Positions 1,915 to 55,861 of a stretch of DNA of 64,000 bases are shown here, in pieces. The stretch lies in the IMG/VR virus record IMGVR_UViG_3300021068_000001, positions 106,819 through 170,818 of that record, one strand, 5' to 3'. Source of the DNA: a virus. Under the pieces are notes generated by a model that saw only the letters and a program-made list of their open reading frames with translations, was not told the DNA's origin and searched no databases. Positions within the stretch are counted from its first letter, which is position 1, and every line of letters starts with the position of its first letter. A program made the position numbers and the translations under genes.

Positions 1915-2449
1915 AATTAGTGAAGCAAGTGCAATAACTGAAGAATATTTAAAAGATAATTTTTTAACAGCGTACTTCATTGACAATGAAAGACAAAACA
2001 TAGAGATACAAACTACAACTAGAGATAAGAAACAAGTTATAACAAATATTATACCTTTTGATGAAGAAGATGTAAAATTTAAAGCACTACAAAGTGTTAT
2101 GAATGTGGATCAATTACACGAGTCTACATACCAAAAAGTTAAAAACGAAAGAAAATTGTTTGAAGAAACAGTTTTAAGAATCGCAAAAAAAGATGGTATT
2201 GTTATGGACTCTGCTAAGATTGATACAAAATTTTATCCAAAAGTAATTGACGCTCTTTTTAATGATGAGGAGAATGCAGATCATCTCTTTGCATTGAAAT
2301 TAGCTGTATTTGAATTAGAAAAAATTAAAGATTCACAAGAAGAAGATTTAAAAAAACAAATAAGACAATCTAAATCTAAAACAGAAATTATAGCAAAAGT
2401 TTGTGAGATTTTACTTCCTAAACGAGATATCCCTATTGGGGATATGTAA
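1904..2449 (+). CDS. Conserved-looking protein of unknown function
   Basis: 181 residues, acidic and Lys/Glu-rich, with a probable helical, coiled-coil-like C-terminal third and no membrane segment. I do not recognise a family. ATG 1904 is preferred over an in-frame ATG at 1880 because AAGGAG (1891-1896) lies at the right distance in front of it. The start overlaps the epimerase by 11 bases, so the two are probably co-translated. The 3' end overlaps the convergent minus-strand gene by 17 bases, and a hairpin lies in that overlap. Confidence 0.65.
   Translation: MTTEISEASAITEEYLKDNFLTAYFIDNERQNIEIQTTTRDKKQVITNIIPFDEEDVKFKALQSVMNVDQLHESTYQKVKNERKLFEETVLRIAKKDGIVMDSAKIDTKFYPKVIDALFNDEENADHLFALKLAVFELEKIKDSQEEDLKKQIRQSKSKTEIIAKVCEILLPKRDIPIGDM
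2427..2445. terminator. Hairpin at a convergent gene junction, possible weak bidirectional terminator
   Basis: ATATCCC (2427-2433), five-base loop, GGGATAT (2439-2445): a perfect 7 bp stem exactly where the plus gene ending at 2449 and the minus gene ending at 2433 overlap. There is no clear U tract on either side, so termination is uncertain, but the position suits a block to convergent transcription. Confidence 0.35.
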
Positions 2450-3047
2450 GATCCGACTTTAAAAAATATTTAGAATACCAACCAGTCCATCCTACTTCCA
2501 TTATGTGGTGCATTTGACCAAGCGTACACATACTAATTTGAGATGTAGTATCAAAGGTCGCCCTTTGAGATGGTTTATTATAGATGTAATCCTTTATTGA
2601 AGGACATACTCTACCATAAGTTTTGTATTTTATATTTTTGTAATACCATTCATCACTACCTCTTGTATAAGTGTCTATAAAATGCTTGTCATTAGCTTTA
2701 AATGTATTCCAGATGTGTGATACATCACCTGTCCAAGATACAACAGACGAATTTAAAGGTGTATGATTAGGTTCTCTCCACCAAGTATCATCTAAAAGTG
2801 TAAAATCTTTTCTAATTAAGTTGGGTAATTTATCAAAGATAATAACATCCAAATCAAAGTATAAATTTTCACCATCTCTAAATCTATCATACATTTGAAA
2901 TTTATTAAACCAATTACCATATAAGTCATCTTCAACAACTTCAAAACTATCATATTTTAGACCAGAGTATTTGTCTATCATATGTTTTAAGTTATCAACG
3001 TGCCATTGAGTAAACTTATTACCGAATCTACAACAAATAATCCGCAT
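2433..3047 (-). CDS. Putative GT-A fold glycosyltransferase
   Basis: 204 residues. A hydrophobic strand followed by D65-L-D67 (in NLYFDLDVIIF) has the form of the DxD metal and nucleotide-sugar site of GT-A glycosyltransferases. The context YFDxDVIIFDxL resembles the two neighbouring glycosyltransferases (DID and DFD), so the three may be distant paralogues. It is the last gene of the minus-strand island and overlaps the preceding gene by 20 bases. It would transfer a sugar from a nucleotide donor; donor, acceptor and linkage are unknown. No membrane segment is seen. The family call rests on one motif plus context. Confidence 0.55.
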   Translation of the reverse strand: MRIICCRFGNKFTQWHVDNLKHMIDKYSGLKYDSFEVVEDDLYGNWFNKFQMYDRFRDGENLYFDLDVIIFDKLPNLIRKDFTLLDDTWWREPNHTPLNSSVVSWTGDVSHIWNTFKANDKHFIDTYTRGSDEWYYKNIKYKTYGRVCPSIKDYIYNKPSQRATFDTTSQISMCTLGQMHHIMEVGWTGWYSKYFLKSDLTYPQ

Positions 3048-3768
3048 TTATTTTTCTTCCTACTCCTGTGTAGTGTATAACTTTAAGTTTTTCGTTTACT
3101 TCTTTATCTAATATCATATAATCAGTATTAAACTTTTTCATATACATTTGATTGAGTTGTAGATTTTCTTTAAAGTCATCTGTATATTTTGCAATCCATT
3201 CCTTAGGTGTTGTTGTTAGTTTTGCTTTATGTTCTAATACTTTCAATTTAACGTAATTTTGTTCGCCGTAGTATTTTTTATGTACAGTACCGTTATTATA
3301 AAAATGTAGTTGCCAGTATTCTGGATTAAGTGCGAAGTCATCCCAAACAAACTTCAAAGAACCTGATTTAAATTTATAAAACCCACCATTAATACCTAAC
3401 TTGTTTTCCCACCATTGACCATATGTAACTAATTCATTTTCTTCAACAGGCCAATTCAATAAATCATCTACATTGCTTACAATGACTTGATCTATATCCA
3501 TAATGATAATATCATCACCTGGATTTTGATGTGCAAATTGTGGACTGAAAAATTTTAGTTTGTGCCAATGTTTAACTATATTACTATGATGGTTGTAGGG
3601 GTAGATAAAGTCAGCCTTCATCCCTGGATGTTCAAAAGGATGTTTTCTATCTGCTAAACATATAAACTGAAAGGGAACTGTTGAATGTTTTTTTAAACCT
3701 TCGTAAAGTTTAGAAACATAAACTGGTGGATAAAAACCTTCAAAGAAGACTGTACATATTTTAAGCAT
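3028..3768 (-). CDS. Putative GT-A fold glycosyltransferase
   Basis: 246 residues from ATG 3768, chosen over an in-frame upstream start because GGAGAAG precedes it and it overlaps the end of the upstream gene by 8 bases. D91-I-D93 in IIIMDIDQVIVSN is a good DxD motif. The following Gly-Ile-Asn-Gly-Gly-Phe is typical of the substrate loop in GT8-like enzymes. It is cytoplasmic by appearance and part of the minus-strand glycan island. Specificity cannot be assigned. Confidence 0.65.
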   Translation of the reverse strand: MLKICTVFFEGFYPPVYVSKLYEGLKKHSTVPFQFICLADRKHPFEHPGMKADFIYPYNHHSNIVKHWHKLKFFSPQFAHQNPGDDIIIMDIDQVIVSNVDDLLNWPVEENELVTYGQWWENKLGINGGFYKFKSGSLKFVWDDFALNPEYWQLHFYNNGTVHKKYYGEQNYVKLKVLEHKAKLTTTPKEWIAKYTDDFKENLQLNQMYMKKFNTDYMILDKEVNEKLKVIHYTGVGRKINADYLL

Positions 3769-4696
3769 TAAGTCTTCTCCACACAAGGTCAAAATCTTTA
3801 TTAATCGTGTGGCAAAGGATTGTTTCTTCAGGTATAAAACCTTGATTATATAAAAAGTAGTGCCATTTGCTGTCTAACCACAGAACAGGTACCTCATTTT
3901 CTTTTAACTTAACTGAAAATAATGTTTCATTATCCCAACCAAAGTATTGTCTTATTCTATCAGGAAATATGTTAGTTACATATTTGTCATTTACTGTTAC
4001 GATTTGAGGATCTTCTCTACCTTTAGGAATATATAAAATATCTCTTGTTTGGATTTTTAAATGTGACATTAAAGCCATATTCTCCTCAAACTCACCAAAG
4101 TAATCTAATCTTGCAAGATTTAATTTATTAATACCTACAATGCCAGTATTAATAACATCATTTTTAATACTCATTTTTTTTTCAAACAACATTGCTTGAG
4201 CATTATAATATTTTGATGATGGACTTCTTATTGTTTGAGAGGTGTCAGTAATAGCTTCAATTGTATTAATTCTATCATTGTTATTTAATATTGCTATACC
4301 TTCATTTAAATTCCAATGTTCAAAAAAGTTTTCATTCTTCATAGGTACAACATCAAAATCCAAATATAATATTTCATCATATTCTTCAGCCAATAGATAC
4401 ATTAAATGTATCTTATAAAAGTTTATTATATTATACATTGTTAAGAAAGGATACTTTGTTTTCATTTTGGAATGATAAATCATAAAATCAGTATCATATT
4501 CATACAATTTAAAATCAGCACCTATTTTGTTAGCATACATTTCTTTTACAGCACAAAGGTCGCCATAATGAAGTTTAAACTGATTTTTTGTTCTTACGTT
4601 GACAGGAGTATCACCTTCTTTAAGGAGGTTTTTATCAAAGATATCTATGTCATCTTTTGGTATCTCAATATATAAAGTATAAATTATTCTTTTCAT
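3761..4696 (-). CDS. Putative glycosyltransferase, GT8-like
   Basis: 311 residues. D113-F-D115 in EILYLDFDVVP is a textbook DxD site, and INTGIVGINK further on resembles the conserved NxGxxxxN region of GT8-like enzymes. The start ATG (4696-4694) overlaps the stop of a 42-residue membrane peptide as ATGA, so the two are translationally coupled. This is the third and longest of three adjacent DxD glycosyltransferases. Having several in a row suggests assembly of a short oligosaccharide or decoration of a repeating glycan (inference). Confidence 0.72.
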   Translation of the reverse strand: MKRIIYTLYIEIPKDDIDIFDKNLLKEGDTPVNVRTKNQFKLHYGDLCAVKEMYANKIGADFKLYEYDTDFMIYHSKMKTKYPFLTMYNIINFYKIHLMYLLAEEYDEILYLDFDVVPMKNENFFEHWNLNEGIAILNNNDRINTIEAITDTSQTIRSPSSKYYNAQAMLFEKKMSIKNDVINTGIVGINKLNLARLDYFGEFEENMALMSHLKIQTRDILYIPKGREDPQIVTVNDKYVTNIFPDRIRQYFGWDNETLFSVKLKENEVPVLWLDSKWHYFLYNQGFIPEETILCHTINKDFDLVWRRLNA

Positions 4697-4831: not shown

Positions 4832-5695
4832 CTATGCTGGCAAAGGATTCTTTTCTAAATCCTCAACTCTTGGAAGCCTTCCAATTAATGTAAATCTTGT
4901 TCCTCTTTCATCATTAATTTCATCTTCTATAAGTATTTCGCAATCTAAAGGTATTTGTGTTTTAAATTCTTTTACATTGTTTACACAATTTATATGAGTA
5001 TCAATATTGAACATATCATTTGATTGGAACGCAAAATGAGCAGTCTTTTTCATTCTTGTCCACCATGGAACTTTACGTGTAACTGGTACACCAAATTTAG
5101 AATCAAAGTATAGGGATTTAGGTCCTGGAGGTCCCCATTCAGACATTGGTCTCATATGTTCACAAGCGGTGTTAATGAAGATATCAGCATTTGTATATTC
5201 TTGTCTAAATTTTTCAAATACATCATCCGCAATAAAATTTACATTTGGGTAATCCATAAACAATCTATTTTTAGCTACATTTATTACTCTCTCGTCCATA
5301 TCTATTGCTGTTATTTTTTTAACTCTAGGTGCTAATGCAGGGACTAGAATGCTTCCAAACCAACAACCAAATATAACTATTTCTGTTTGCTCGTTAATTA
5401 ATCCAAATTCGTCAAGGTGATTTATGATATTAAATTTTGCGTTAACTTGTGGTGTACTGAAAGAATCTAAAAGACTATATTCTATATCTGGTTCTTTTTT
5501 TATAGTTTGTAATACGTTGTCAAGCAATCTATAATCAATGCCGTCATTTGTTGCCTTTAATATATTGTGTAAGAAACCAAATTGGTCATCCTCTTTTATT
5601 GCATATAATATATCATCAAGTGTTCTATAGTTTATATTTTTATTTTGCAAATCTATAATATTTTTAAAAAATTTCAAATTTTCTCGTTCTATCAT
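4832..5695 (-). CDS. SAM-dependent class I methyltransferase
   Basis: 287 residues. IVIFGCWFGS (about 105-114) corresponds to SAM-binding motif I (normally GxGxG, here GCWFG), followed by an acidic strand end ITAIDMDE (about 128-135). IFINTACEHM corresponds to motif IV. The first 80 residues contain repeated short helical units (LLDNVLQTIKKE, TLDDILYAIKE) not typical of the family. ATG 5695 is chosen because it overlaps the upstream TGA as ATGA; an in-frame TTG at 5710 is less likely. It sits directly after the carbamoyltransferase, so O- or N-methylation of the same glycan or small molecule is plausible (inference). Confidence 0.72.
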   Translation of the reverse strand: MIERENLKFFKNIIDLQNKNINYRTLDDILYAIKEDDQFGFLHNILKATNDGIDYRLLDNVLQTIKKEPDIEYSLLDSFSTPQVNAKFNIINHLDEFGLINEQTEIVIFGCWFGSILVPALAPRVKKITAIDMDERVINVAKNRLFMDYPNVNFIADDVFEKFRQEYTNADIFINTACEHMRPMSEWGPPGPKSLYFDSKFGVPVTRKVPWWTRMKKTAHFAFQSNDMFNIDTHINCVNNVKEFKTQIPLDCEILIEDEINDERGTRFTLIGRLPRVEDLEKNPLPA

Positions 5696-7206
5696 TTTCT
5701 TATAATCCAATCATTTATTATTAATATATCCAAATCAGTTCTTCTAAAGGTTCTTAAAGCGTGTTGTGGTGTTTCTACAATTGGTTCCTGACAATTGAAA
5801 CTTGTATTTAACAACATCGGTATGCCTGTTATCTTATAAAACTCATTCACTATATTATAAAACTTTTTGTTATCTTTTATATTTATAGTCTGTATTCTAG
5901 CCGTATTATCAACGTGAGTAATCCCTGGCACTTTATCAGTTTTAACTTGACATATACGTGACATATAAGGACTAGGTCCTCCTCTTGTATCAAAATATTC
6001 TTGGTAATGTTCTTCTAATACAACAGGTGCAAACGGTCTAAAATCTTCTCTCTTTTTTACTGTATGATTAATAATATCTTTAATATCAGGATTGCGTGGG
6101 TCTGCTAATATGCTTCTATTACCTAATGCTCTATTACCACTTTCTGATTTACCTTGAAACCAACCTACAATTTTTCCATCAGCAATTGCTTGTGCCACTT
6201 CTTTGTAATCTGCTTTTTCTTCACCTAGGTAATTATATTCTCTACCAGCATATGTGTTTGTTTTGTGTATATTATTATTTAAAGTAAAGTCAGCGTGTTG
6301 ATATGTTCCTATTGCTTGTCCTTCATCACCTACAGCAGGTGGTATGAAAACACTTTTATAATGTTTAGTAAATTCTTCGTTCATATATCCATTGTAAGCA
6401 ACGCCACCTGCAATACATAAGTTATCACAAGTCTTTAATGGGTACACATATTTTTTAATTTTATCAATTGTAAATTTTTGAAGTGTGTATGCTAGGTCAT
6501 CCATGCCGTGTGTTTCAACATCAATTTTTTTAAACTCTTTATATTTTCTTTCTAATACAGGTCCGTCCATTATGATTTCAAACGCATTATAATAATAACT
6601 ACTATACTTACCATATCCAACTTTACCCATAAGTTTACTTGCACCAAGTGTACCAAAACCTGTAAGATTAGACATATGGTTCCATAACCAACCAAGAGGT
6701 AGTACATCTGATAAGTCTATTAAATTTTGATCTTTGTCAAAGAATACACATCTAAATTTTGATCCTATACCATCAATTGCTAGTATATCTGATTGTTTAA
6801 AACCAGAGTTTATAAATGCGTAAGCAGCGTGTGATTGATGATGGTCTATAAAGTAGATATTATCTTTGTAATAATAATCCCATAATTTTTTAGGGTCGTA
6901 ATTAAATATTTCATCATGGCCTTTTAAAACTGTTTTTAGTAATTCATCTTTTGATTTTCTTACACCACCATAAGTATATGTCCAAGCTAGAATACCATCA
7001 TCAGGTTTTTTAAAATATCTTTCAGTAAACTCATCATTTAATCTATAGTCGCCAGGATCCAATATGTCTGATTGATGAGCATATGCCTCGGCTCTATATG
7101 GTAAGTTGTGTTTAAATCTTGTTTGTCTTTCTGCTTGATAATGATATGCACCATCATAGGTATTGTGGTCGTGTAAATTTAATGCTACGGAATATATTTT
7201 ACTCAT
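5692..7206 (-). CDS. Carbamoyltransferase, NodU/CmcH family
   Basis: 504 residues, close to the usual 500-600. The N-terminal Kae1-like domain shows the metal-binding DHHQSHAAYAF (121-131) and ILAIDGIGS. The C-terminal YrdC-like domain shows WFQGKSESGNRALGNRS, then ILADPRNP and REDFRPFAP, which are family hallmarks. Members use carbamoyl phosphate and ATP to carbamoylate sugars or antibiotic scaffolds through a carbamoyl-adenylate. Here it lies among glycosyltransferases, an aminotransferase and a methyltransferase, so a carbamoylated sugar is the simplest product. The gene overlaps the upstream radical SAM gene by 8 bases. Confidence 0.92.
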   Translation of the reverse strand: MSKIYSVALNLHDHNTYDGAYHYQAERQTRFKHNLPYRAEAYAHQSDILDPGDYRLNDEFTERYFKKPDDGILAWTYTYGGVRKSKDELLKTVLKGHDEIFNYDPKKLWDYYYKDNIYFIDHHQSHAAYAFINSGFKQSDILAIDGIGSKFRCVFFDKDQNLIDLSDVLPLGWLWNHMSNLTGFGTLGASKLMGKVGYGKYSSYYYNAFEIIMDGPVLERKYKEFKKIDVETHGMDDLAYTLQKFTIDKIKKYVYPLKTCDNLCIAGGVAYNGYMNEEFTKHYKSVFIPPAVGDEGQAIGTYQHADFTLNNNIHKTNTYAGREYNYLGEEKADYKEVAQAIADGKIVGWFQGKSESGNRALGNRSILADPRNPDIKDIINHTVKKREDFRPFAPVVLEEHYQEYFDTRGGPSPYMSRICQVKTDKVPGITHVDNTARIQTINIKDNKKFYNIVNEFYKITGIPMLLNTSFNCQEPIVETPQHALRTFRRTDLDILIINDWIIRK

Positions 7207-8038
7207 TTAATACACTCCCATATTTTGATATAGGAAAATGACCTTTAGGGTTAACATATTCCATACAACTTTTACAATAACTCTCATATTTAAATAATCT
7301 ATAATTCATCATTTTGTCAACGTTCTCCTGTGTAATTTCAAAATTTTTAGATACTATTAAATTATTAGCAAACTTTTTGCTACAATGTACTATGTGTCTT
7401 TTCTCAAAATCTATAACTGGCACCATAGGGAAAGCTGCACACATTTTTCTATCTATCTCGGCTGATTGTTCATCAATAACTTCTTTCATATTATCTTTGT
7501 TAGGCGTTCTACCATTAAAGGTTTTAAACATTGTGTTGTTATGACTTATTGCTTTTATATCTTCGGGAAAGTTATCTTTGTATTTAAAATAGTTAGGTGT
7601 TTTAACAACTAGATTGTAATTGTTAAAATTATTCTCTGGTAACCAAGGAAAATTACCTAACTTCTCAATTCTGTCTTCATAAAAATCTTCTGTTGAGTGT
7701 TCTACATAAAGTATATCTTTATCTTCTAGTATTTCAGGATATCTTTTTCTAACAAAAGAGTTTGATAATACTGAACAAACAAAATTAGGATACTTTTTAA
7801 TTTCATTAATAACATCTCTTAAATTTTTAATTAGACCTGGCTCACCACCTAATAGACAAACACGAATTTTATATTTCCTTAACTTCTCTAAAGTACTCTT
7901 TAGAAAATCCATATCAACAGTTAAGTTTCTCATCTCTAAAGTATAACTTGTACAATAATGGCAAGATTTATTACACGACATAGATAGGAAGAAGTCTATG
8001 GCTAAATAATCTTGTTGTATTTCTTTTAAATTTTTCAT
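7199..8038 (-). CDS. Radical SAM enzyme
   Basis: 279 residues. C22-x3-C26-x2-C29 (CNKSCHYC) is the [4Fe-4S]/SAM site, and CLLGGEPGL is the GGE motif that binds the SAM amino group. The C-terminal part has further Cys residues (CAAFP, HCSKK, CKSCMEYV) that could hold an auxiliary cluster, as in SPASM/twitch proteins. It starts with an ATGA overlap to the upstream gene and is followed by the carbamoyltransferase. The reaction is unknown; family members epimerise, dehydrogenate or cross-link peptides and sugars. Confidence 0.88.
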   Translation of the reverse strand: MKNLKEIQQDYLAIDFFLSMSCNKSCHYCTSYTLEMRNLTVDMDFLKSTLEKLRKYKIRVCLLGGEPGLIKNLRDVINEIKKYPNFVCSVLSNSFVRKRYPEILEDKDILYVEHSTEDFYEDRIEKLGNFPWLPENNFNNYNLVVKTPNYFKYKDNFPEDIKAISHNNTMFKTFNGRTPNKDNMKEVIDEQSAEIDRKMCAAFPMVPVIDFEKRHIVHCSKKFANNLIVSKNFEITQENVDKMMNYRLFKYESYCKSCMEYVNPKGHFPISKYGSVLNE

Positions 8039-8355
8039 CTATTATCAAATTTGTTAAAGAACAGTTTATTAAATGCTATTAACAACTTCTCTTTAGGTCT
8101 ACTTTTAAAATTGGTTTTTTTGAAAAGATAATCAGACCTTTCGTAACATTTTTCTATAATATATTCATAAATGTCCTCATTTTCTTTTTCAGTAAGTGAC
8201 CTGTCTATAACTAATTTATCTCCAAATATAAATTGCATTCTTTTAACAAACTGGATTAATCTGTATGGAATATCATCTGTTATATCAACCATATTATTAG
8301 TATCATCAACATAACAAAAATTAGTTCCTTTTGGACTTACAATTATCTCATTCAT
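8035..8355 (-). CDS. Unknown protein in the glycan island
   Basis: 106 residues with no motif I recognise, a basic C-terminus, and no signal peptide or membrane segment. Both ends overlap neighbours as ATGA, so it is a real, translationally coupled member of the operon between the DegT aminotransferase and a radical SAM enzyme. It could be a small partner protein of the radical SAM enzyme or a carrier; nothing in the sequence decides. Confidence 0.6.
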   Translation of the reverse strand: MNEIIVSPKGTNFCYVDDTNNMVDITDDIPYRLIQFVKRMQFIFGDKLVIDRSLTEKENEDIYEYIIEKCYERSDYLFKKTNFKSRPKEKLLIAFNKLFFNKFDNR

Positions 8356-9446
8356 ATTGTCATTATAATTATATCACATATCTTATCAACTTCATCATCT
8401 GTTACGTATGGATGAATTGGTAAAGATAAAATAGTTTCGGTTACTTTTTTACAATTTATACAATCGTCTTTTCTATGTATAATGGATTTATACATTTCAT
8501 TTTCAGATATAGGTTTGTTGTAATGTACATCTGCTTTCAATCTTTCTTTTAATAAATCTCTTGTTTTTTTGTCTTTTAATCTTATAACATATTTGTGATA
8601 GTTATGATTAAGACCGTTCGTTCTTGGTTGTATAATTACAGGCAATTGTTTTAAATTGTTATCATATCTTATTGCAACATTTAAACGACTATCTTGCCAT
8701 TCATCCATCTTCTTTAATCTAAAGTTTATAAACTCAGCATTGAATAATAACATTTTAGAATTATATCCTAACACTTCATTGTTTCCGTGTCTTCTTAATT
8801 TTCTTACTAAATTTGCTTGTTCTTTATTGTCTGTTAAAAAAGCACCACCGCCTGCAATACCAGCTACAGGTTTATTTGCATTGAAACTTATAGCGCTTAC
8901 GTCTCCAATTGTACCTGCCTTAATACCATTAAAACTAGAACCTAATGATTGACAAGCGTCCTCTATAAATGCAATATTCTTTTCTCTACAAAATTCTAAT
9001 ATCTCAAATGTCTCCGACATACTTCCAAACAAGTGTGGATATATAATTGCTTTTACTTTTGGAGACCACATTTTTTTAATACTCTCTAAAGACATATGGT
9101 AAGTATCTGGATCAATATCACAAAATACAGGTGTTGCACCTACCATAGTGATACAAGAAGCAGTTGATATCCAGGAGAAGTTAGTTGTTAATACTTCATC
9201 ACCAGGTTTAATTCCTATACCATCTTTAATACCTAAACTAATTAAAGCAAAATGTAATGCGTCTGTTCCACTACCTACAGCAACAGCATATTTTCTATCG
9301 GTTACTCCATATAATGAATGTAAAATACTCTTTTCTAAAAACTCTATATTTCTTTCTTGTTCTTTTTGCATAACTCTATCAAAAAGTTTTAAGTATTCTT
9401 CTTTGTTTTCTAAATATTCTCTACCCCAACCTGTGTAGTCTGTCAT
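8352..9446 (-). CDS. DegT/DnrJ/EryC1/StrS-family PLP aminotransferase
   Basis: 364 residues, the normal size. VGSGTDALHFAL (about 57-68) is the cofactor phosphate region. IEDACQSLGSS (161-171) contains the Asp that contacts the pyridine nitrogen. SFNANKPVAGIAGGG places the Schiff-base Lys at K192. These enzymes transaminate keto-sugar nucleotides to amino sugars. In this operon it suggests that an amino-sugar is made and transferred. It overlaps both neighbours as ATGA. The keto-sugar dehydratase that would feed it is not in this operon; the epimerase at 1165-1914 is a candidate. Confidence 0.92.
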   Translation of the reverse strand: MTDYTGWGREYLENKEEYLKLFDRVMQKEQERNIEFLEKSILHSLYGVTDRKYAVAVGSGTDALHFALISLGIKDGIGIKPGDEVLTTNFSWISTASCITMVGATPVFCDIDPDTYHMSLESIKKMWSPKVKAIIYPHLFGSMSETFEILEFCREKNIAFIEDACQSLGSSFNGIKAGTIGDVSAISFNANKPVAGIAGGGAFLTDNKEQANLVRKLRRHGNNEVLGYNSKMLLFNAEFINFRLKKMDEWQDSRLNVAIRYDNNLKQLPVIIQPRTNGLNHNYHKYVIRLKDKKTRDLLKERLKADVHYNKPISENEMYKSIIHRKDDCINCKKVTETILSLPIHPYVTDDEVDKICDIIIMTI

Positions 9447-10306
9447 ATATAAACTCCTATTTTGTTCATACCTTTACTATATCCTAATTTGTCAAATATA
9501 AATTGTGCTATTTGTTCTTGCCCTTTTGCGTTTGGATGTAAATCTAATTTAGATATTCTTTCAACACCGATCCAATCATCTGATAAAGCAAAAGCATTTA
9601 CTTCTAAATCTTTTTCTGTAGGCCAACCTAGGAAGTTACTATTAATTTTATTGTAATAAGGATTCTCTACCATTTGCTTTCTTAACTTTTTTGCGGATTC
9701 GTGTTTGTAAGCCATCTCTACTGTTGTTAGTTGATCGTTTGTATTTGGGATTCCCAAATCCCAACCAACGTGCTCTTGTTCTTTTTGCCAATTTTTGTGC
9801 TTAAAATGGTATTGTTTTTGATGGAGATGTCCTGCCCTTTCAATCGCTATCTGTTCCCATATATAACCTCTATATAAATTTAATATTTGGACTTGTCTAT
9901 ATGGCACTTTAAGATTTTCACAAACATTTTGAAAACTATAATAATATCTTATACTTCTATCTACCCAATATTCAATACAACCTTTAACATCTGTACTATC
10001 ATTAGTCCAATATCTATTGTTAGTGATTCTGGTTGAGAGTTGGTAGTCACGTCTAGGTGCTGTTGTCCAAGCAGGAAGAACTAGCCCTATCCTATTTGTA
10101 TTAAGTGTTTGTATTTTATCTATTAGTGAACTGTAAATATATTCTTGTCCTGCACCAGACTTACATAGATTGATACATTCCATATTTACTTTTTCAGCCA
10201 ATATTTCAGGCCACTTTGGCCAGTCACAATCCATATCAGGATGTGAAGCAGACGTCCAATTAACATCACCCCAACTACAACCACTTACTAATAATATATC
10301 TTTCAT
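9443..10306 (-). CDS. SGNH/GDSL-like hydrolase
   Basis: 287 residues. The N-terminal strand followed by SGCSWGD (8-14) places the nucleophile Ser11 as in block I of SGNH hydrolases. KSGAGQEY (about 49-56) resembles block II, and the C-terminal LDLHPNAKG supplies Asp255 and His257. Long inserts between the blocks make it larger than a minimal SGNH domain. Such enzymes add or remove acyl groups on glycans, or act as esterases. Position between DegT and the SPASM/radical SAM pair points to glycan acyl editing (inference). Confidence 0.72.
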   Translation of the reverse strand: MKDILLVSGCSWGDVNWTSASHPDMDCDWPKWPEILAEKVNMECINLCKSGAGQEYIYSSLIDKIQTLNTNRIGLVLPAWTTAPRRDYQLSTRITNNRYWTNDSTDVKGCIEYWVDRSIRYYYSFQNVCENLKVPYRQVQILNLYRGYIWEQIAIERAGHLHQKQYHFKHKNWQKEQEHVGWDLGIPNTNDQLTTVEMAYKHESAKKLRKQMVENPYYNKINSNFLGWPTEKDLEVNAFALSDDWIGVERISKLDLHPNAKGQEQIAQFIFDKLGYSKGMNKIGVYI

Positions 10307-10307
10307 A

Positions 10308-10667
10308 CTAAACTTCTTCCTTGATTATAGACTTACCTTCCTCATCAAAGTGATGGTTTATTTTTACTTTATCTTTGCCTCTATTTAAACAATGATACAA
10401 ACAGTTATGAGGAATTTTTGAGTGGTCACCCTTCTCACCTTCTCTCATTAGTTTTTCAAAACCTCTCCATTCATCTGACAATAATATTTCATCTATAGAT
10501 TCAACTTCACTTACTTTACTAACTTTTAACATCTTTTGAAATAAAGGTGTACTTAAAGTATATTCTTGGTCACAATAACAACAAGGTAATAAATGGCCTC
10601 TATTATTCATGGCCACTTGCATTTTACCATTTAAACATTTTGCAACAAACTTACCTTTCTTTGTCAT
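10308..10667 (-). CDS. Stand-alone SPASM/twitch-like iron-sulfur domain protein
   Basis: 119 residues. Cysteines at 11, 29, 30, 32, 89 and 93 in the order C-x7-VAMNNRGHLLPCCYC ... HNCLYHC match the auxiliary-cluster domain normally fused behind a radical SAM core (Cys, then a G-x-x-x-P-C strand turn, a helix, then a closing Cys pair). Here it is a separate gene starting inside the end of the radical SAM gene, with a 17-base overlap in another frame and its own AAGGA 10 bases before ATG 10667. It probably docks on the upstream radical SAM protein to rebuild a two-cluster enzyme. Confidence 0.68.
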   Translation of the reverse strand: MTKKGKFVAKCLNGKMQVAMNNRGHLLPCCYCDQEYTLSTPLFQKMLKVSKVSEVESIDEILLSDEWRGFEKLMREGEKGDHSKIPHNCLYHCLNRGKDKVKINHHFDEEGKSIIKEEV

Positions 10668-11334
10668 CTCTTACGTATCCTTGGTATGCTAAATTATATT
10701 CTTTCTTTGTAGGTCTCAATGGATCACTTTCATTCTTCCACCTTGATGAGTGTAACACTATAAACATTAGACCAAAATCTTTTGCCATCTGTTTAGCAAT
10801 GTCTAAATGATTTTCATTATAACTAAACACTATGTACTGCCACGATGGTGTTTTTTCTAAATGTTTTTTTGCCTCTAACATAACTCTAAAGAGTTTGTTA
10901 CCATCTTGGTTTATTCTATACAAATTACTTTCTTCAGGTAGTCCATCAATTCCAAATATCCATTTTGCTTTAGGGTGTGCTTTAAATGCTTTTACGTACC
11001 ACCTTTCAGGCTTTTGAGATGAGGCATTATGTATTGCAACATCTATATTTTTTTTATAAAGATAGTCTAATATTTCTACAAATTTAGGATGGTGTACAGG
11101 ATCAGATAATTGACCACAGAAATTAAATGAAGTAAAATGATCTGATAACTTTCTTATTTCGTCCATAGTAGCATCTCTTCCGTACACTTTTCTTCCTTTA
11201 AGTGTAAAGTTGGTTTGTCTTTGACATCTCATACATTGTAAAGGACATCTATTGCTTATATCAATATTTATTCCTCTAGTTGGACGCCTAAAAAACGAAA
11301 TAGGACTTGTATCTGTTATAATTTCTCTATCCAT
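10651..11334 (-). CDS. Radical SAM core protein
   Basis: 227 residues. C30-x3-C34-x2-C37 (CPLQCMRC) is the cluster site. FNFCGQLSDPVHHPKF corresponds to the region where peptide- and sugar-modifying members carry the GGE-like segment, here C-G-Q-L-S-D-P. The TIM-barrel core is followed by an abrupt end without auxiliary-cluster cysteines; these are encoded by the next gene. Residues 110-125 (KWIFGIDGLPEES) match the conserved S/GxDG barrel strand of twitch-type enzymes. The start overlaps the upstream gene by 19 bases. Confidence 0.85.
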   Translation of the reverse strand: MDREIITDTSPISFFRRPTRGINIDISNRCPLQCMRCQRQTNFTLKGRKVYGRDATMDEIRKLSDHFTSFNFCGQLSDPVHHPKFVEILDYLYKKNIDVAIHNASSQKPERWYVKAFKAHPKAKWIFGIDGLPEESNLYRINQDGNKLFRVMLEAKKHLEKTPSWQYIVFSYNENHLDIAKQMAKDFGLMFIVLHSSRWKNESDPLRPTKKEYNLAYQGYVRDDKER

Positions 11335-12191
11335 GCTAATAAATTTTTTACTTTGTCTTTGTTACGATTATCTGTTAAGCACCACGCAGGTCTTTTCCAA
11401 TAGATAGGACCACCATCTTTAAAGGATTTATCTCTTAAATAAATGACTTCTTTTCCTAACCATTTGCATTCTTGTATAATTCTAGGTGCAGGATCAAAAT
11501 TAGGTTTAGTATAAACATATGTATCAAACAGACCTAATAAGTTTTTCACAGGAACAAAAACGTGATTACGTTTTTCATTTATATATTTGTCTTTGTATGC
11601 TAGAATACCGTGTGAAGGATAGTCTTTGATATGTTTTTCAACCTCTCTATAATATGTTCTATTTGTTCCTAGAAATAGATATTTAAATTTTATATCATCT
11701 ACTACAGGTTTGTATATACTAAAGTTAATTATTTTTTCAAATTGTTCACCAACACCATTTACATATACTTCGTGGTCACATAAATTGACAACTTGCTTTG
11801 GTTTAAAATGTTCAAGTGCTAAAGGATATTCCTTTGGATGATTTTCTGAATATACAGAAATAAGTTTACCACCAAACACCTGATGTAGTGTTAATTTTTG
11901 TTCTTCACTATAAGTATTATAATCCAAGTATGCTAAAGTAATTTGACTTCTACCCATAATCAATGTTATGTCATTTGAGTGAGAAATAAAATTATTAAAT
12001 ATAACATTTTCGTACTTGGAATACGACTCATAAATGGCGTCTATATAGTCCTGCTCTGTATGTTTTTTATTGGGTATGATTATAAGTTTTGCATTTATGC
12101 CTTGGTCGTTGAGATAACAACAATGTTCGTAACTATAATGAAACAGTCCGTCACCAGGCTTACTTGTACATACTAAATTAACATTTTTCAT
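11316..12191 (-). CDS. Putative GT-B-like glycosyltransferase, first gene of the minus-strand island
   Basis: 291 residues with no signal or membrane segment. The C-terminal segment NFDPAPRIIQECKWLGKEVIY has the form of the GT-B donor-site helix (acidic residue in a PRxxxE-type motif followed by GKEV strand). The N-terminal KPGDGLFHYSYEHCCYLNDQG resembles the acceptor-domain start of GT4-like enzymes. The gene lies directly behind two sigma70-type promoters at 12197-12261. The family call is moderate; it could also be a non-catalytic glycan-binding relative. Confidence 0.5.
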   Translation of the reverse strand: MKNVNLVCTSKPGDGLFHYSYEHCCYLNDQGINAKLIIIPNKKHTEQDYIDAIYESYSKYENVIFNNFISHSNDITLIMGRSQITLAYLDYNTYSEEQKLTLHQVFGGKLISVYSENHPKEYPLALEHFKPKQVVNLCDHEVYVNGVGEQFEKIINFSIYKPVVDDIKFKYLFLGTNRTYYREVEKHIKDYPSHGILAYKDKYINEKRNHVFVPVKNLLGLFDTYVYTKPNFDPAPRIIQECKWLGKEVIYLRDKSFKDGGPIYWKRPAWCLTDNRNKDKVKNLLAWIEKL

Positions 12192-13508: not shown

Positions 13509-14038
13509 TGTGGTATCATAGAAAATTTAAATTACGATATGACGCTAACGTGTTCAATGATATAATTGAATATGCTAAAACAGCAGAATGGAAACAAGGT
13601 TACGATCAAAATGGTTTAATATGGAACATTGAAGAACTGCCTTTAAAACCTGAACAGTTTCCTATACTAAATGAATTATACGAAGGTCTAAATGCAGAAT
13701 TTAAAAGACCTTCTTTTTTCCTCAGCAATGTAAAACCAGGTGGGTTAGTAAATCATATAGACCATAACAAATGGGGTAATCTTGGTATACCAATACTAGG
13801 AGATTTTAAAAATACACCTCAATATTTTTACGACCAATTCAATCATCCTGTAGAGTCATTTATAAATGATAGTCCTGTTATATTCAACACACGTATGCTA
13901 CACGCTGTGCCTAGAGAATTAGACGACACAGGACCGAGATGGATTTTAATGATGGATTTATTTGATTGGGTTGATAAGTTATTTGCTAAAGTTGATAATA
14001 AAACAATATGGACAGACACAAAGAATTTTAATGCGTAA
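13508..14038 (+). CDS. 2-oxoglutarate/Fe(II) oxygenase-like protein
   Basis: 176 residues. KPGGLVNHIDHNKWG supplies H83 and D85, MLHAVP supplies H132, and R144 (GPRWIL) is placed to bind the 2-oxoglutarate carboxylate. It shares the order PGG-x-x-x-H-x-D ... TPQ-x-F ... PVIF-x-x-R-x-LHAVP ... R with the gene at 15722-16333, so these are paralogues. It starts directly on the previous stop and overlaps the next gene by 8 bases. Confidence 0.75.
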   Translation: MWYHRKFKLRYDANVFNDIIEYAKTAEWKQGYDQNGLIWNIEELPLKPEQFPILNELYEGLNAEFKRPSFFLSNVKPGGLVNHIDHNKWGNLGIPILGDFKNTPQYFYDQFNHPVESFINDSPVIFNTRMLHAVPRELDDTGPRWILMMDLFDWVDKLFAKVDNKTIWTDTKNFNA

Positions 14039-50533: not shown

Positions 50534-51160
50534 ATGACAATTATAAACTCTAATACAAGACAGCCAACTAAACTAGACTATGCAAGTCCTACACAATTTA
50601 AGTTTTCTATAATTAAATTACCTAAAGTAGAATACTTTTGTACGGCTGCAAACATACCTGGTATCACACTAGGTACTGCAAATCAGGATACACCTTTTAA
50701 AGATATACCTATCCCAGGTGATAAAGCAGATTATGATACTTTGAATATATCTTTTTTAGTAGATGAAAATTTAGAAAACTATAGAGAGATCCATGGATGG
50801 ATGACTGGTCTTGGTTTTCCTAAAGACCATTCACAATTTAGAAATTTACAACAAGCTGGTTCAGATAGATATCCTACTACTACAAGTGAAACTTATAATA
50901 AAGAATTAGGACAAGTAGTAAAACAAACTTCGGATGATGGTGGTTTATATTCAGACGCTACATTATTTGTATTAACAAGTAAAAACAATCCAAATATAGA
51001 AGTTAGATTTAGAGATATATATCCTATATCATTGTCTGGTTTAGATTACAATCAACAAGCAACAGATATTAATTATCTAACTTGCGCTGTTACATTTCAA
51101 TACAAGATATATGAGTTTGCAAATATTAGTGGGAGCACAACTATAGAAACTACTAGTTAA
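50534..51160 (+). CDS. Tail-tube-fold protein; tail completion candidate
   Basis: 208 residues. SPTQFKFSIIKLPKVEYFCTAANIPG and FKDIPIPGDKADYDTLNISFLVDENLENYREIHGWM follow the gp19 tube pattern (motifs quoted in part: PTQFKFSIIKLPKVEYF; PIPGDKADYDTLNISF). In cyanomyoviruses a protein of this type lies between gp23 and uvsY and is often labelled gp3, the tail completion protein; I recall this but cannot verify it. T4 gp3 is shorter (176). Role: tube terminator or tube-like cap. Late promoter directly upstream. Confidence 0.7.
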   Translation: MTIINSNTRQPTKLDYASPTQFKFSIIKLPKVEYFCTAANIPGITLGTANQDTPFKDIPIPGDKADYDTLNISFLVDENLENYREIHGWMTGLGFPKDHSQFRNLQQAGSDRYPTTTSETYNKELGQVVKQTSDDGGLYSDATLFVLTSKNNPNIEVRFRDIYPISLSGLDYNQQATDINYLTCAVTFQYKIYEFANISGSTTIETTS

Positions 51161-51184: not shown

Positions 51185-52579
51185 ATGACCGTTCGCAAAA
51201 GACCATCACAGCAAAATTTACGTAAATTTATTACACGAGGAGGACCAGGAGACAAGTACCTTGGGGAAGGGAAAGTCAATATGGACTCGTGGTTCAAAAA
51301 AGAGAATGTAGATATTTTAGAAGACCAAATTAGAAGTGGAGAGTTACCATTCTTTTGTGGTGCACCATTTCAAATGGTTTATACTACAACTAGAGGAGAA
51401 TATGCTCCATGTTCCTGGGTACAAGAAGGTTTTAATCCTAACATAAAAAATGTAAGTATTAAAAAATACTTTAAAGATAATGCAAATTTAAATGCTCTCC
51501 GTAAAGAGATGACCACTCCTGGGGACCCTTTAAAGTTAGCAAAAAAATGGTGTGTAAACTGTATGAGTCAGGAAAAGATTTATGGTAGATCAAGGAGACA
51601 AGCTTCATTAAAAATACAAACAAACGATAGAGGTTTATGGCCTGGTATAAGAAGAGCTGTTGAAGAATGGAAGAAGACAGGACAAGGTCATTTAGAAGAT
51701 AGAATATTAGAGATACAAATTAAAGCATTTGGAAACAAATGTAACCTAGATTGTTATATGTGTGTTCCTTATGATTCTACTACCAGATTAAAGACTATAC
51801 ATTCTGAACAACTAAAAGATGAAAAGGTATTTTCAGAATATGCTAAAACACATATTGCAGCTATGCCAAAACAAACTCTTACTTCTATAGTAGACCAGGT
51901 AGCTGAACTTGCCCCATACATTTATAACTTAAAGTTTATTGGTGGTGAACCTTTAGTTATGAAAAACTTTTATGAGATGTTAGACGCAATAATAAAGACA
52001 GGACACGCTGATAAAATGTTTGTAAAATATCAGACTAATATGTCCGTAGTAGAATTTGAAAGAGTTAAAATAACAAATTATATTCCTCATTTTTTAAACT
52101 TTGAATTTACAGTATCTTTGGATGGAGTTGATAAGTGGGATGAATATATTAGACGTAGGTCTGATTTTGAAGGAATTGTTAACAACATAAGAGAGGTAAA
52201 AAAATATCCTAATGTAACTGTAAACGTAAATGGAACAATATCCTTTTTAAGTGTATTGAGATTCTATAAATTGATAGAATGGTTTAATGATAATAATGAT
52301 TTATTCTTTCAGATAAACTGGTCAAATATCAGAGGACCAAAGAAATTATGTGCCAATGTATTGCCTGATAAGATCAAAGAAGACCTTATTCCATTGTATA
52401 AAGACTGGCCAGACATACAAAATGTTCTTAAAGAAGACAATCACGGACTAGACTATCAGGATACGCTTGACTACCTTTTAATGAATGATAAATACTATAA
52501 AGGCACTAAATGGGATATGAATTTATTTGAGGTATTTCCTGAACTAGAACCATATCATAATAAAAAGGAGACAAAGTAA
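51185..52579 (+). CDS. Twitch/SPASM-type radical SAM protein A
   Basis: 464 residues. Unusual order: an N-terminal auxiliary-cluster-like domain (C58, C76, C123, C126 in FFCGAPF, YAPCSWV and WCVNC) comes before the radical SAM core with C186-x3-C190-x2-C193 (CNLDCYMC). FIGGEPLVM is the SAM amino-binding motif, and SLDGVDKWDEYIR is a conserved barrel strand. TRGGPGDK near the start is shared with the paralogue at 53870. Modifies an unknown substrate, likely peptide or small molecule. No precursor peptide gene is seen next to it. Confidence 0.88.
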   Translation: MTVRKRPSQQNLRKFITRGGPGDKYLGEGKVNMDSWFKKENVDILEDQIRSGELPFFCGAPFQMVYTTTRGEYAPCSWVQEGFNPNIKNVSIKKYFKDNANLNALRKEMTTPGDPLKLAKKWCVNCMSQEKIYGRSRRQASLKIQTNDRGLWPGIRRAVEEWKKTGQGHLEDRILEIQIKAFGNKCNLDCYMCVPYDSTTRLKTIHSEQLKDEKVFSEYAKTHIAAMPKQTLTSIVDQVAELAPYIYNLKFIGGEPLVMKNFYEMLDAIIKTGHADKMFVKYQTNMSVVEFERVKITNYIPHFLNFEFTVSLDGVDKWDEYIRRRSDFEGIVNNIREVKKYPNVTVNVNGTISFLSVLRFYKLIEWFNDNNDLFFQINWSNIRGPKKLCANVLPDKIKEDLIPLYKDWPDIQNVLKEDNHGLDYQDTLDYLLMNDKYYKGTKWDMNLFEVFPELEPYHNKKETK

Positions 52580-53280
52580 TGACACAATTAGACCTATTAG
52601 ATGAAAGGCGACACGTAAAGGTATATGATGGTGAATCTATACCTGATAAGGAGTTGATTGAAAAGATCCTTTGGAGAGCATGGAAAGTTACGCCTTCAAA
52701 AAATAATTTTATGCCATATCACGTTAACGTTTTAGGACCTGAAAGGGCTTCTGAAAAAGAATCAATATGGATGAAATCAGTTAAGAATAAGAAATCAATT
52801 AATGAAACAAACATACCCAAGTATCACGCCGATTATAGTGAAAAACATAAAGTTTGGAAAGAAGATGGTTATAACGCATATTTCTATCATTTAAAATCTG
52901 CTCCATATCTTTTAGTTTTTACTCAAAGAGTATGTACACCAAATGATTATTATAGAAAAAGTATAGAGGGTGGAGACTTCTATGAACAAATGCACGAAGA
53001 CCATATGGAATCTATGTTGAGAACTACTGCTGTTGAAGTTGGTATGTTCTGCGCTAATTTAGCTGTATTTGCTTTAGAAGAAGGATTACATACTTCAACT
53101 ATTGCTTGTTTCCCACACGGAGATCCAGATAAATGGAAAGATTTACCGTGGGTGGAACATCCTGTAGTCTTATTAGCAAGTATTGGAAAGAGCGCTCAAC
53201 TTCGTAGGGAGCATATGAATACAGCAGAAAGAAAAGATGATATCAAACCTTCTGCTGAAACTGTTATAAAATGGATATAA
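52579..53280 (+). CDS. Nitroreductase-family flavoprotein
   Basis: 233 residues. ERRHVKVYDGESIPDKELIEKIL gives the first phosphate-binding Arg pair (R10, R11). RAWKVTPSKNNFMPYHV is the FMN SxxNxQPW-like segment, and GMFCANLAVFALEEGLHTSTI is the conserved helix at the dimer interface. Binds FMN and uses NAD(P)H; could reduce, desaturate or recycle a redox intermediate for the radical SAM partners. Starts on the upstream stop (TAATG). Confidence 0.82.
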   Translation: MTQLDLLDERRHVKVYDGESIPDKELIEKILWRAWKVTPSKNNFMPYHVNVLGPERASEKESIWMKSVKNKKSINETNIPKYHADYSEKHKVWKEDGYNAYFYHLKSAPYLLVFTQRVCTPNDYYRKSIEGGDFYEQMHEDHMESMLRTTAVEVGMFCANLAVFALEEGLHTSTIACFPHGDPDKWKDLPWVEHPVVLLASIGKSAQLRREHMNTAERKDDIKPSAETVIKWI

Positions 53281-53281
53281 A

Positions 53282-53863
53282 ATGGGTCTGGAGAACAAGA
53301 CAATAGTATTATTAATTGATTTTGAAGGCCATCCTGCAATGGGTGACGAACATACTAACCATCTTCGTTATTCTTGCTTAAATGGACTATTGTCAATTCC
53401 AGATTCAGATTTATATATTATATCTAATCACTTGCAAGGAATTTCAAGTGATGACAAAAGCACACATTTAAAAATGTGTGAAATAGAAAAAATGGTGGCT
53501 GCAGAAGGCAGACACACTTGGAGAAATATTGATCCTGATAAAGAAATATCTGTTAAAGATATTGAAGCTATATTAGAGAAAGACGGCTATCGTATTAAAA
53601 ATGTTATTTTAGGTGGCTGCAATACAGCAGGTTGTGTTTTAAGAACAAGAGGATATTCTGCACAAAAATGGGCTGAAGCTGGACACAATGTACAGATATA
53701 TCTTCCTATGTGTGCTGATTATCAATTGGCAGGTCTTAATCAAGCTGAAAGAAATTTAAAAGCATTTACTATAATGTACACGATTATTAAACATCATAAT
53801 CTATTTGATAGAATAGATATTGTAAGGAGACTAGACCAATTAAAATTTAAACACGACTGGTAA
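53282..53863 (+). CDS. Isochorismatase-like cysteine hydrolase
   Basis: 193 residues. VLLIDFEGHP supplies the first catalytic Asp (D13), and NVILGGCNTAGCVLRTRGYSA corresponds to the family box with nucleophile Cys118 (motif quoted here: VILGGCNTAGCVLRT). The third catalytic residue (Lys) is not certain. Members hydrolyse amides, nicotinamide or isochorismate. One base after the nitroreductase stop region and 7 bases before the second radical SAM gene, so it belongs to the same operon. Confidence 0.72.
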   Translation: MGLENKTIVLLIDFEGHPAMGDEHTNHLRYSCLNGLLSIPDSDLYIISNHLQGISSDDKSTHLKMCEIEKMVAAEGRHTWRNIDPDKEISVKDIEAILEKDGYRIKNVILGGCNTAGCVLRTRGYSAQKWAEAGHNVQIYLPMCADYQLAGLNQAERNLKAFTIMYTIIKHHNLFDRIDIVRRLDQLKFKHDW

Positions 53864-53869
53864 AATATT

Positions 53870-55372
53870 ATGAAAGATATGAATCCAACCGAACTGGATA
53901 CCAACGAATGGATTGATCCAACTATTAAAAGACTTGGTAAGGAAAAGGCACGATTAACCAGAGGTGGTCCTGGCGATAAGTCAACACCAGGTAACGTTGA
54001 TACATCGGAATGGTGGCAAGACGTTTCTAAAAGAACAAAAGAAACTAGAGCATTCACACCTATAAAAGGCATACCAGTAAAAGATAAAACACTTATACAA
54101 AAAGCAAAAGATAAAGACATTTTTTTTTGTACAATCCCTTTCACACAAGCTTATTCTGAAATGAATGGTAGGTGGCAAGCCTGCTGTTTCGCTCACGCTC
54201 CTATGAATGGTCCTACAGTTGAAGATACAACTATCAAGGAATGGATGGAAGATAGTTCGTATATGAACTCCATTAGAAAAGAAATGACAACGCCTGGTTC
54301 TGATTTGAGGAATGTTAAAAAGTGGTGTCAAAGATGTGTATCAGACGAAGAAAGATATGGAAGATCCAGAAGAACAAACTGTTTAAAAATCCATACTAAT
54401 AATTCTGAATTTTGGGATGACATTCAAAAGAGTGTTGATTTATATGAAGCAACTGGCAAGTGGACATTTTTTGAAAGAATTATAGAAGTACAGTTAAAGA
54501 TATTTGGTTCGGAATGTAATTTAGATTGCCATATGTGTATTCACACTAACTCAACAGTAAGACAAGCTGTCGCAAAGAAGGGTGTTTGGAGTAAAGCAAT
54601 TTGGGAAAAGGATACGTCTTGGCCAGACCATATAATTAATTTTAAAACACACGGAAAAGATCGTACAAAAGGTACAATTGAACAGGTGCTTGAGTTAGCA
54701 CCATACATAAGAAGTATTAAAATTATTGGTGGTGAGCCTTTAATTATGAAAAAACATTATGAGATGATGGAAAAAATTGTAAAATCTGGACACGCTGATA
54801 AAATTTTTGTTAAGTATCAAACAAATATGACCAAAACAAAAACAGGTAGACATAGTATATTTGATTATGTACCTTACTTTAAAGAAGTGGCTATGGTGGG
54901 TTCTGTAGATGGTGTAGGTAAAACTATAGAGTATATAAGAAGAAGAACAAATTGGAAAGAGCTTGTAGAAAATATAGAAGAATGTAAAAAATATCCTAAT
55001 GTAGTTGTTGACTTTAATGGGTTGGTATCGTTTTTAAGTGTAATGAGATTTTACGAAGTAATTGATTATGTAAAACAGAACCCAAATATATTTCAAATCA
55101 ATTGGGCTATGTTAGAAACTCCAATACATTTAAGACCTAATAATTTACCTGAACCAATAAAACAAAAGTTAATTCCAAAGTACGAAGACTATCCTGACAT
55201 TGTGGCTGCTCTGGAAAGACCTATGGATCCAGGAGTTAATATACAAGATATATTTCAATATCTATTAAAACAAGATAAACACTATGAAGGAACAAAATGG
55301 GAAATGCACCTGTTTGATGTTTTCCCTGAACTTAAAGAATACTACGATCCAAATTATAAAGAGATAACGTAA
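53870..55372 (+). CDS. Twitch/SPASM-type radical SAM protein B
   Basis: 500 residues, paralogue of the gene at 51185. N-terminal auxiliary domain with C87, C105, C106, C153 and C156; radical SAM cluster C216-x3-C220-x2-C223 (CNLDCHMC); IIGGEPLIM; SVDGVGKTIEYIRRRTNW. It has an extra 12 residues in front of TRGGPGDK and an extra Cys (C106). Same C-terminal layout ending in HYEGTKWEMHLFDVFPEL. Two different paralogues around a redox enzyme and a hydrolase suggest two successive modifications or a heterodimer. Confidence 0.88.
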   Translation: MKDMNPTELDTNEWIDPTIKRLGKEKARLTRGGPGDKSTPGNVDTSEWWQDVSKRTKETRAFTPIKGIPVKDKTLIQKAKDKDIFFCTIPFTQAYSEMNGRWQACCFAHAPMNGPTVEDTTIKEWMEDSSYMNSIRKEMTTPGSDLRNVKKWCQRCVSDEERYGRSRRTNCLKIHTNNSEFWDDIQKSVDLYEATGKWTFFERIIEVQLKIFGSECNLDCHMCIHTNSTVRQAVAKKGVWSKAIWEKDTSWPDHIINFKTHGKDRTKGTIEQVLELAPYIRSIKIIGGEPLIMKKHYEMMEKIVKSGHADKIFVKYQTNMTKTKTGRHSIFDYVPYFKEVAMVGSVDGVGKTIEYIRRRTNWKELVENIEECKKYPNVVVDFNGLVSFLSVMRFYEVIDYVKQNPNIFQINWAMLETPIHLRPNNLPEPIKQKLIPKYEDYPDIVAALERPMDPGVNIQDIFQYLLKQDKHYEGTKWEMHLFDVFPELKEYYDPNYKEIT

Positions 55373-55432: not shown

Positions 55433-55861
55433 ATGACATTTGACGAACTACAAGAGTTGGCTGAAAAAGATTTAAAACTAAATGATACTGAACTAGATAT
55501 AGAATCATTAAAGACCCCACAATTACATAACAAATATTCAAAGTTTCACAATCAATATATTAATCTGTTAAAGAAAGCAGAGCAAGATAGAGATGTAATG
55601 GTTAGAGATAAATGGGAATATTACACAGGTAAAGCAGACGCTAGCGTCTATCAAGCAAAACCTTTTAATCTTAAAATTTTAAAACCAGATGTTGACAAAT
55701 ATCTCAAAGCAGATCCCGACTTAATCAAGTTGGAACAAAAGGTAGTTTATATAGAGAGTGTTGTAAACTATTTGGACAAGACAATTAGACTAATTGCAAA
55801 TCGTTCCTTTCAAATAAAGAACGCAATTGAGTGGCGTAAATTCACTTCTGGCGTTATCTAA
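55433..55861 (+). CDS. uvsY: UvsY-like recombination mediator
   Basis: 142 residues (T4: 137). TFDELQELAEKDLKLNDTELD, KYSKFHNQYINLLKKAEQD, YYTGKADASVYQAKPFN and the C-terminal RSFQIKNAIEWRKFTSGV are characteristic. Loads UvsX on gp32-covered single-stranded DNA during recombination-dependent replication. TGGAG precedes the ATG. First gene of the recombination group. Confidence 0.92.
   Translation: MTFDELQELAEKDLKLNDTELDIESLKTPQLHNKYSKFHNQYINLLKKAEQDRDVMVRDKWEYYTGKADASVYQAKPFNLKILKPDVDKYLKADPDLIKLEQKVVYIESVVNYLDKTIRLIANRSFQIKNAIEWRKFTSGVI

Follow-up and report, generated by a model that had tools for sequence, protein, structure and literature searches.

A four-gene cassette lies between the tail tube and uvsY genes of a marine T4-like phage known from IMG/VR record IMGVR_UViG_3300021068_000001. 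It encodes two radical S-adenosylmethionine (SAM) proteins, RS1 and RS2, which enclose a nitroreductase-fold flavin mononucleotide (FMN) oxidoreductase (NTR) and an isochorismatase-fold protein (CYS). We analysed 64,000 nucleotides of this record (positions 106,819 to 170,818; hereafter the window), and the evidence leans towards the cassette being one dispersed module, with a radical SAM tailoring role, of a virus-encoded pathway that makes or decorates an unusual sugar or surface glycan. The chief reason to assume a single pathway is that the set of genes persists while its arrangement changes.

The cassette and its genomic slot

The cassette (window 51185-55372) consists of four intact, nearly abutting open reading frames (ORFs) on the + strand (Table 1), and the coordinates assigned to it in an earlier note on this DNA were confirmed. 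The spacers from the tail tube gene through RS1, NTR, CYS and RS2 to uvsY measure 24, −1, 1, 6 and 60 bp and leave no space for a precursor peptide gene, in agreement with the earlier note, which had seen none. Antisense ORFs within RS2 were taken as spurious. The cassette is also conserved, as its four-gene order was recovered from over 25 different contigs of marine viruses. Relative to the nearest relative, dN/dS was 0.21, 0.18, 0.32 and 0.21 for RS1, NTR, CYS and RS2, respectively, and 0.06-0.09 for uvsW, uvsY and the tail tube gene, indicating that the cassette genes are under selection yet evolve faster than core genes. The recurrence of the order and the cassette dN/dS values together indicate that the arrangement is more than chance.

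Both RS1 (281 bits) and RS2 (286 bits) match NF033640 (N_Twi_rSAM, the NCBIfam 'twitch domain-containing radical SAM protein') over positions 3-397/398, more than 100 bits above its curated cut-off of 170 bits, so their earlier description as paralogous twitch-first radical SAM proteins stands. Since NF033640 is itself defined by a twitch domain ahead of the radical SAM core, this domain order is not a new architecture. Intact cluster residues in related phages had been set beforehand as a test of the system, and seven cluster cysteines proved invariant in an alignment of 22 phage sequences (in RS2 numbering, C87, C105, C153 and C156 in the twitch domain and C216, C220 and C223 in the radical SAM CX3CX2C). 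As NF033640 members, RS1 and RS2 are predicted to bind [4Fe-4S] clusters and cleave SAM. In a maximum-likelihood (ML) tree RS1 formed an orthogroup with support of 100/100 and RS2 a group with 94/88; the phage N_Twi_rSAMs formed their own clade, with the cellular members separate and on long branches. The phage branch also differs from other NF033640 members in an N-terminal GGPGD...VDTSxWF motif: the TRGGPGDK-type sequence occurs in nearly all phage RS1 and RS2 proteins and is missing from eight cellular N_Twi_rSAMs. We considered GGPGD as a leader peptide and set this aside, because the motif remains mid-protein where RS2 is fused behind another enzyme (see below).

NTR matches PF00881 with 45.5 bits against a cut-off of 23.5, and its profile matches include solved nitroreductases and iodotyrosine deiodinase, which bears out its earlier naming as an FMN nitroreductase. 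CYS had been called an isochorismatase-like cysteine hydrolase, of which the fold and the cysteine are retained. Its AlphaFold2 (AF2) model (mean predicted local distance difference test score, pLDDT, 90.9) resembles nicotinamidase/isochorismatase folds (SaPncA by Foldseek: E 2e-4, target-normalised template modelling score, TMt, 0.67, 13% identity), and Cys118 is invariant in 28 CYS sequences. However, CYS has no Pfam or NCBIfam match, the residue at the Asp position varies (D, H or E), and the alignment lacks an invariant Lys. The Asp-Lys-Cys triad is thus incomplete, so that CYS is a relative by fold whose hydrolase activity is uncertain. The genome to which the window belongs also encodes, at about 40.3 kb (L115:341-952), a CYS paralogue that is 39% identical. 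Elsewhere among marine T4-like phages NTR, often with CYS, lies without RS1 or RS2 beside genes that we take to be nrdA/nrdB-like (L050-L068, e.g. L054 and L059).

The earlier note held that the cassette interrupts a gp23-to-uvsY region composed of core genes only. The insertion is real, but the tail tube/uvsY junction is not strictly core-only. This slot varies in content: tail tube and uvsY are adjacent in Pelagibacter phage Mosig, with nothing between them, and HTVC008M has endonuclease V there. We surveyed the slot in contigs recruited by uvsW, independently of the cassette, 63 of which span it. Thirty-nine of these 63 were empty, 17 held RS2 only, six the four-gene set and one RS1-NTR-CYS; three of the six four-gene slots belong to the window's own virus, and one has a doubled CYS. 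Co-occurrence of the four genes, the other test set beforehand, thus gave a divided answer, the order often being retained but RS2 also standing alone in the slot; one genome of the latter kind was examined, and it encodes the partners elsewhere. The DNA of uvsY and uvsW shares 67-68% identity with that of the two Pelagibacter phages, from which a SAR11-type bacterium is the likely host.

Fusions and rearranged relatives

We recruited relatives with each cassette gene and mapped them with 25 family hidden Markov models (HMMs). Recruitment was by short peptide patterns and yields fragments; co-occurrence of the full set was seen in two large records. Elsewhere among phages the four cassette genes are embedded in a long biosynthetic cluster. 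It also encodes a glycosyltransferase (GT)-like protein, a second nitroreductase (NTR2), a twitch protein that stands alone with a bare radical SAM core behind it, a PP-loop enzyme of QueC-like type, SGNH proteins and a DegT aminotransferase, as well as one more radical SAM protein, a carbamoyltransferase, a methyltransferase and further glycosyltransferase-like proteins. Several of these partners are fused to N_Twi radical SAM proteins. RS1 is joined to the carbamoyltransferase in four contigs (L013, L014, L015 and L017), the PP-loop enzyme precedes RS2 in a single protein in four (L029, L088, L090 and L103), and the GT-like protein is joined to a third N_Twi radical SAM protein in seven (L032, L033, L036, L086, L087, L104 and L107). 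The PP-loop enzyme carries SGGxDS and a QueC-type C-terminal CxxCxxC motif, and its PF06508 match is marginal (23.7 bits against a cut-off of 22).

In the window's own phage the remaining partners are found in two modules, one in the window (2433-12191, − strand) and one elsewhere in the record (G000:84940-88083). A 165.7-kb phage record (G1925) shows another arrangement, with RS2 alone in the uvsY slot, NTR and CYS at 8 kb, RS1 at 42 kb with the PP-loop, split radical SAM and NTR2 genes, and a carbamoyltransferase/glycosyltransferase cluster around 69-71 kb. In the ML tree the second copy in G1925 falls within the RS1 group, and copies located at the slot fall within the RS2 group. Among 80 contigs recruited by the carbamoyltransferase, NTR-family genes were found within 10 kb in 61, RS2 in 25, CYS in 24 and RS1 in 18. 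Dispersal and rearrangement of the set explain why the cassette appears complete or partial at one slot. The earlier view of the cassette as a self-contained system is therefore not supported, since RS1 and RS2 are linked, through fusions and through rearrangements in relatives, with the carbamoyltransferase, the QueC-like enzyme and the DegT/glycosyltransferase cluster.

A scan of genomes with the carbamoyltransferase gave three close matches (L123-L125) in bacterial metagenome-assembled genomes (Pelagibacter, Gammaproteobacteria and Rhodobiaceae). L125 is clearly a phage contig with structural genes, which makes a mis-binned virus likely; the phage gene set is also present in L123 and L124. 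A search of plasmids for relatives found nothing.

The second module in the window sits in a tail-fibre/host-recognition cluster (Table 1). Its DegT, carbamoyltransferase and GT8 assignments, and that of the nearby epimerase, are firm as judged from their profile matches. Pelagibacter phage Mosig EXVC030M (MT647606, 49-73 kb) shares the gene set and order of this module and encodes an NTR-family protein, but its tail tube/uvsY slot is empty and tblastn found no RS1 match in MT647606.

Table 1. Features of the cassette, its flanks and the second module with the nearby epimerase (window coordinates)
Feature	Position	Strand	Description and basis
Tail tube protein (flank)	50534..51160	+	PHROG 45 tail tube, 3.7e-40
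RS1	51185..52579	+	N-terminal-twitch radical SAM protein (N_Twi_rSAM), 464 aa; NF033640, PF04055
NTR	52579..53280	+	Nitroreductase-fold FMN oxidoreductase, 233 aa; PF00881
CYS	53282..53863	+	Isochorismatase/nicotinamidase-fold protein, invariant Cys118, 193 aa; AF2 model and Foldseek
RS2	53870..55372	+	Second N_Twi_rSAM, 500 aa; NF033640
RS2 motif TRGGPGDK...GNVDTSEWW	53954..54020	+	Approximate; RS1 copy near 51236-51310
uvsY (flank)	55433..55861	+	PF11056, 3e-34
NAD-dependent epimerase/dehydratase	1165..1914	+	PF01370, 82 bits
GT50	2433..3047	−	Conserved cluster protein; conserved position
GT49	3028..3792	−	Glycosyltransferase-like by appearance; no Pfam match; conserved beside GT57 and GT50
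Glycosyltransferase family 8 (GT8)	3761..4696	−	PF01501, 32.7 bits
Methyltransferase-like protein	4832..5710	−	PF13649, 24.3 bits, just under cut-off
CARB	5692..7206	−	NodU/TobZ-type carbamoyltransferase; PF16861 and PF02543
RS11	7199..8038	−	Radical SAM protein; PF04055, 35.2 bits; in 74/80 carbamoyltransferase contigs
F51	8035..8355	−	Conserved protein of small size; Mosig has it fused to DegT
DegT/DnrJ/EryC1/StrS sugar aminotransferase	8352..9446	−	PF01041, 260 bits
SGNH/GDSL-like protein	9443..10306	−	Own HMM; homologue L036:11430-12365 PF00657 23.3 bits, just under cut-off
TWI5	10308..10667	−	Stand-alone twitch/SPASM protein; PF13186 weak (17.6 bits); own HMM
RSC3	10651..11334	−	Bare radical SAM core, no auxiliary domain; PF04055, 16.8 bits, under cut-off; own HMM
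GT0	11316..12191	−	Putatively glycosyltransferase-like; homologues fused to third N_Twi_rSAM; no Pfam match for Mosig homologue

Further radical SAM genes were observed. Split enzymes, composed of a stand-alone twitch/SPASM protein and a bare core, occur at window 10308-11334 and at L117:5796-7191 (genome about 85.8-87.2 kb), and in L030 and L124 the two parts form a single protein in reverse order, with the core ahead of the twitch domain. A B12-binding radical SAM protein of 586 aa (PF02310, PF04055) is encoded at window 13962-15722, just past the second module, as a seventh radical SAM gene, and a small radical SAM core gene with PF04055 above cut-off lies outside the three modules (L113, about 16.8-17.4 kb in genome coordinates). 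In L035:1404-4133 and in L034 an N_Twi radical SAM gene stands between GT49 and GT50 in the tail-fibre region, and the rest of the cassette is not nearby. The only sizeable gap in the second module (window 4666-4862, − strand) holds a candidate 42-aa ORF with a hydrophobic C-terminus.

The proposed surface-glycan pathway and its alternatives

Cellular N_Twi_rSAMs are rare, exceeding the cut-off in 1/385, 1/386, 2/399, 2/395 and 6/382 genomes of five groups. An RS-profile scan of contigs from bacteria and archaea found no relative, which is weak evidence as it drew on two short patterns only. We named neighbours by family search in six cellular loci, and all are of surface-polysaccharide type. 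One holds four tandem N_Twi copies with Wzm, RmlC, RmlD and WbsX and a protein in which an O-antigen ABC exporter ATPase (ABC_tran + Wzt_C) is fused to an N_Twi radical SAM protein (L216:8582-11143, − strand). Another has Wzm/Wzt and three GT2 genes (two additional loci, L229 and L230, resemble it by sequence); others have GT1/GT2, or GT2, GT41 and an epimerase, or GT2 and an epimerase as neighbours, and one encodes a sulfotransferase~N_Twi~aminotransferase protein. At two further loci (L226 and L231) nothing was readable among the neighbours. In the window's phage itself, nucleotide-sugar enzymes and glycosyltransferases occur together, as in surface-glycan clusters (DegT, epimerase, carbamoyltransferase and GT8).

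If RS1 and RS2 act on a carbohydrate, the reactions, their order, the product and its target might be as follows. RS1 and RS2 would oxidise or rearrange a sugar-like intermediate by SAM-dependent radical chemistry in which the twitch cluster accepts an electron, and the keto group so formed could be aminated by the DegT aminotransferase. Amidation may be the task of the QueC-like enzyme and carbamoylation that of the carbamoyltransferase, with NTR setting the redox state and CYS perhaps hydrolysing or transferring an acyl or amide group. Methyl- and glycosyltransferases would then cap the unit and attach it, the probable target being a host O-chain or envelope glycan (for receptor change or superinfection exclusion) or the phage fibre. 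A host-recognition cluster with LPS-type glycosyltransferases and radical SAM cassettes was reported for pelagimyophages in 2020, with lipopolysaccharide (LPS) genes also scattered as pairs or triplets (PMC7029224). Those phages resemble ours in being T4-like and SAR11-type and in having GT8 genes in the tail-fibre region, but the passages describing the cluster give no account of an N_Twi pair, nitroreductase or isochorismatase-fold genes, fusions or the uvsY slot.

Several observations weigh against a glycan pathway. The cellular N_Twi_rSAMs form a distant, separate clade, so their function may not transfer to the phage proteins. The AF2 model of RS2 (pLDDT 85) has sactipeptide maturases, viperin and MoaA as its best Foldseek neighbours, through weak core matches (query-normalised score, TMq, ≤0.28) that do not point to sugars. 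GT0, GT49 and GT50 bear a glycosyltransferase label without Pfam support. Finally, NTR and CYS move as a pair, whose occurrence next to ribonucleotide reductase genes without radical SAM partners is unexplained by glycan synthesis. Profile searches of the PDB with the RS, CYS, PP-loop and GT0 families gave nothing useful.

The alternative that survives best, although we consider it unlikely, is modification of a nucleotide, DNA or a cofactor, in which the QueC-like enzyme and the radical SAM proteins would yield a deazapurine-like base or cofactor. The association of NTR and CYS with reductase genes would suit it, as would the CxxCxxC motif of the PP-loop enzyme. There are precedents for deazaguanine pathways in phages and for repurposed QueC proteins, and the PP-loop partner shares SGGxDS and the C-terminal cysteine motif with the QueC family, including QatC and Cap9 (PMC13329287). 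Here, however, the PP-loop protein matches its family only marginally, is fused to RS2 and is clustered with sugar-type enzymes. QueD/PTPS (PF01242) and GTP cyclohydrolase I/FolE (PF01227) were not found in the 170.8-kb record, which is possibly incomplete, and DegT, carbamoyltransferase and GT genes suit a base pathway poorly, though glycosylated bases exist.

The earlier note had seen a resemblance to a peptide or cofactor modification pathway. In the peptide case RS1 and RS2 would modify a phage or host peptide or protein with NTR and CYS as accessories. SPASM/twitch radical SAM enzymes are frequently peptide maturases, the RS2 model weakly matches the cores of CteB and SkfB, and the radical SAM genes stand in tandem. 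This reading nevertheless appears improbable, given the sugar-type partners (carbamoyltransferase, DegT and GTs), the position of cellular family members in surface-polysaccharide loci and cassette spacers too short for a precursor gene. A precursor might be encoded elsewhere in the genome or by the host, but no conserved small gene was noticed beside RS1 or RS2 in other clusters.

A diffusible small molecule, such as an aminocyclitol-like antibiotic, a signal or a siderophore, seems a comparably poor candidate for the product. Aminocyclitol antibiotics are made by enzymes such as BtrN/BtrS and TobZ, and a twitch radical SAM dehydrogenase with DegT and carbamoyltransferase partners is reminiscent of them. 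RS1 and RS2 differ from BtrN-type sugar/aminocyclitol dehydrogenases in having the twitch ahead of the core, and no sequence or fold match of RS1 or RS2 with BtrN was obtained. Moreover, the genes include several of glycosyltransferase type and lie in a tail-fibre/host-recognition location, no exporter was found among those examined, and a secreted product would be of little gain to a lytic phage. Least probable of all is an independent mobile metabolic cassette that shares genomes with the other modules by coincidence, which would fit the variable slot and the travelling NTR-CYS pair but not the several kinds of fusion or the same set in two rearranged large genomes.

The earlier suggestion of an undescribed pathway is supported, with a surface glycan as the favoured product. 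More tentatively, the genes may represent a widespread marine phage pathway in which cooperating radical SAM enzymes (six, or seven with the B12-type gene, split twitch/core proteins included) build a chemically new sugar or glycan that re-decorates the host surface or the virion; cells yielded no counterpart to the set as a whole. If so, abundant ocean phages, whose nearest isolates infect SAR11, would carry a large sugar pathway of radical enzymes that, taken together, were not found in cells. The analysis would also offer, from gene context, a first hypothesis on the uncharacterised N_Twi_rSAM family and would replace a vague 'radical SAM auxiliary metabolic gene' by a specified list of genes and their fusion partners, open to biochemical testing.

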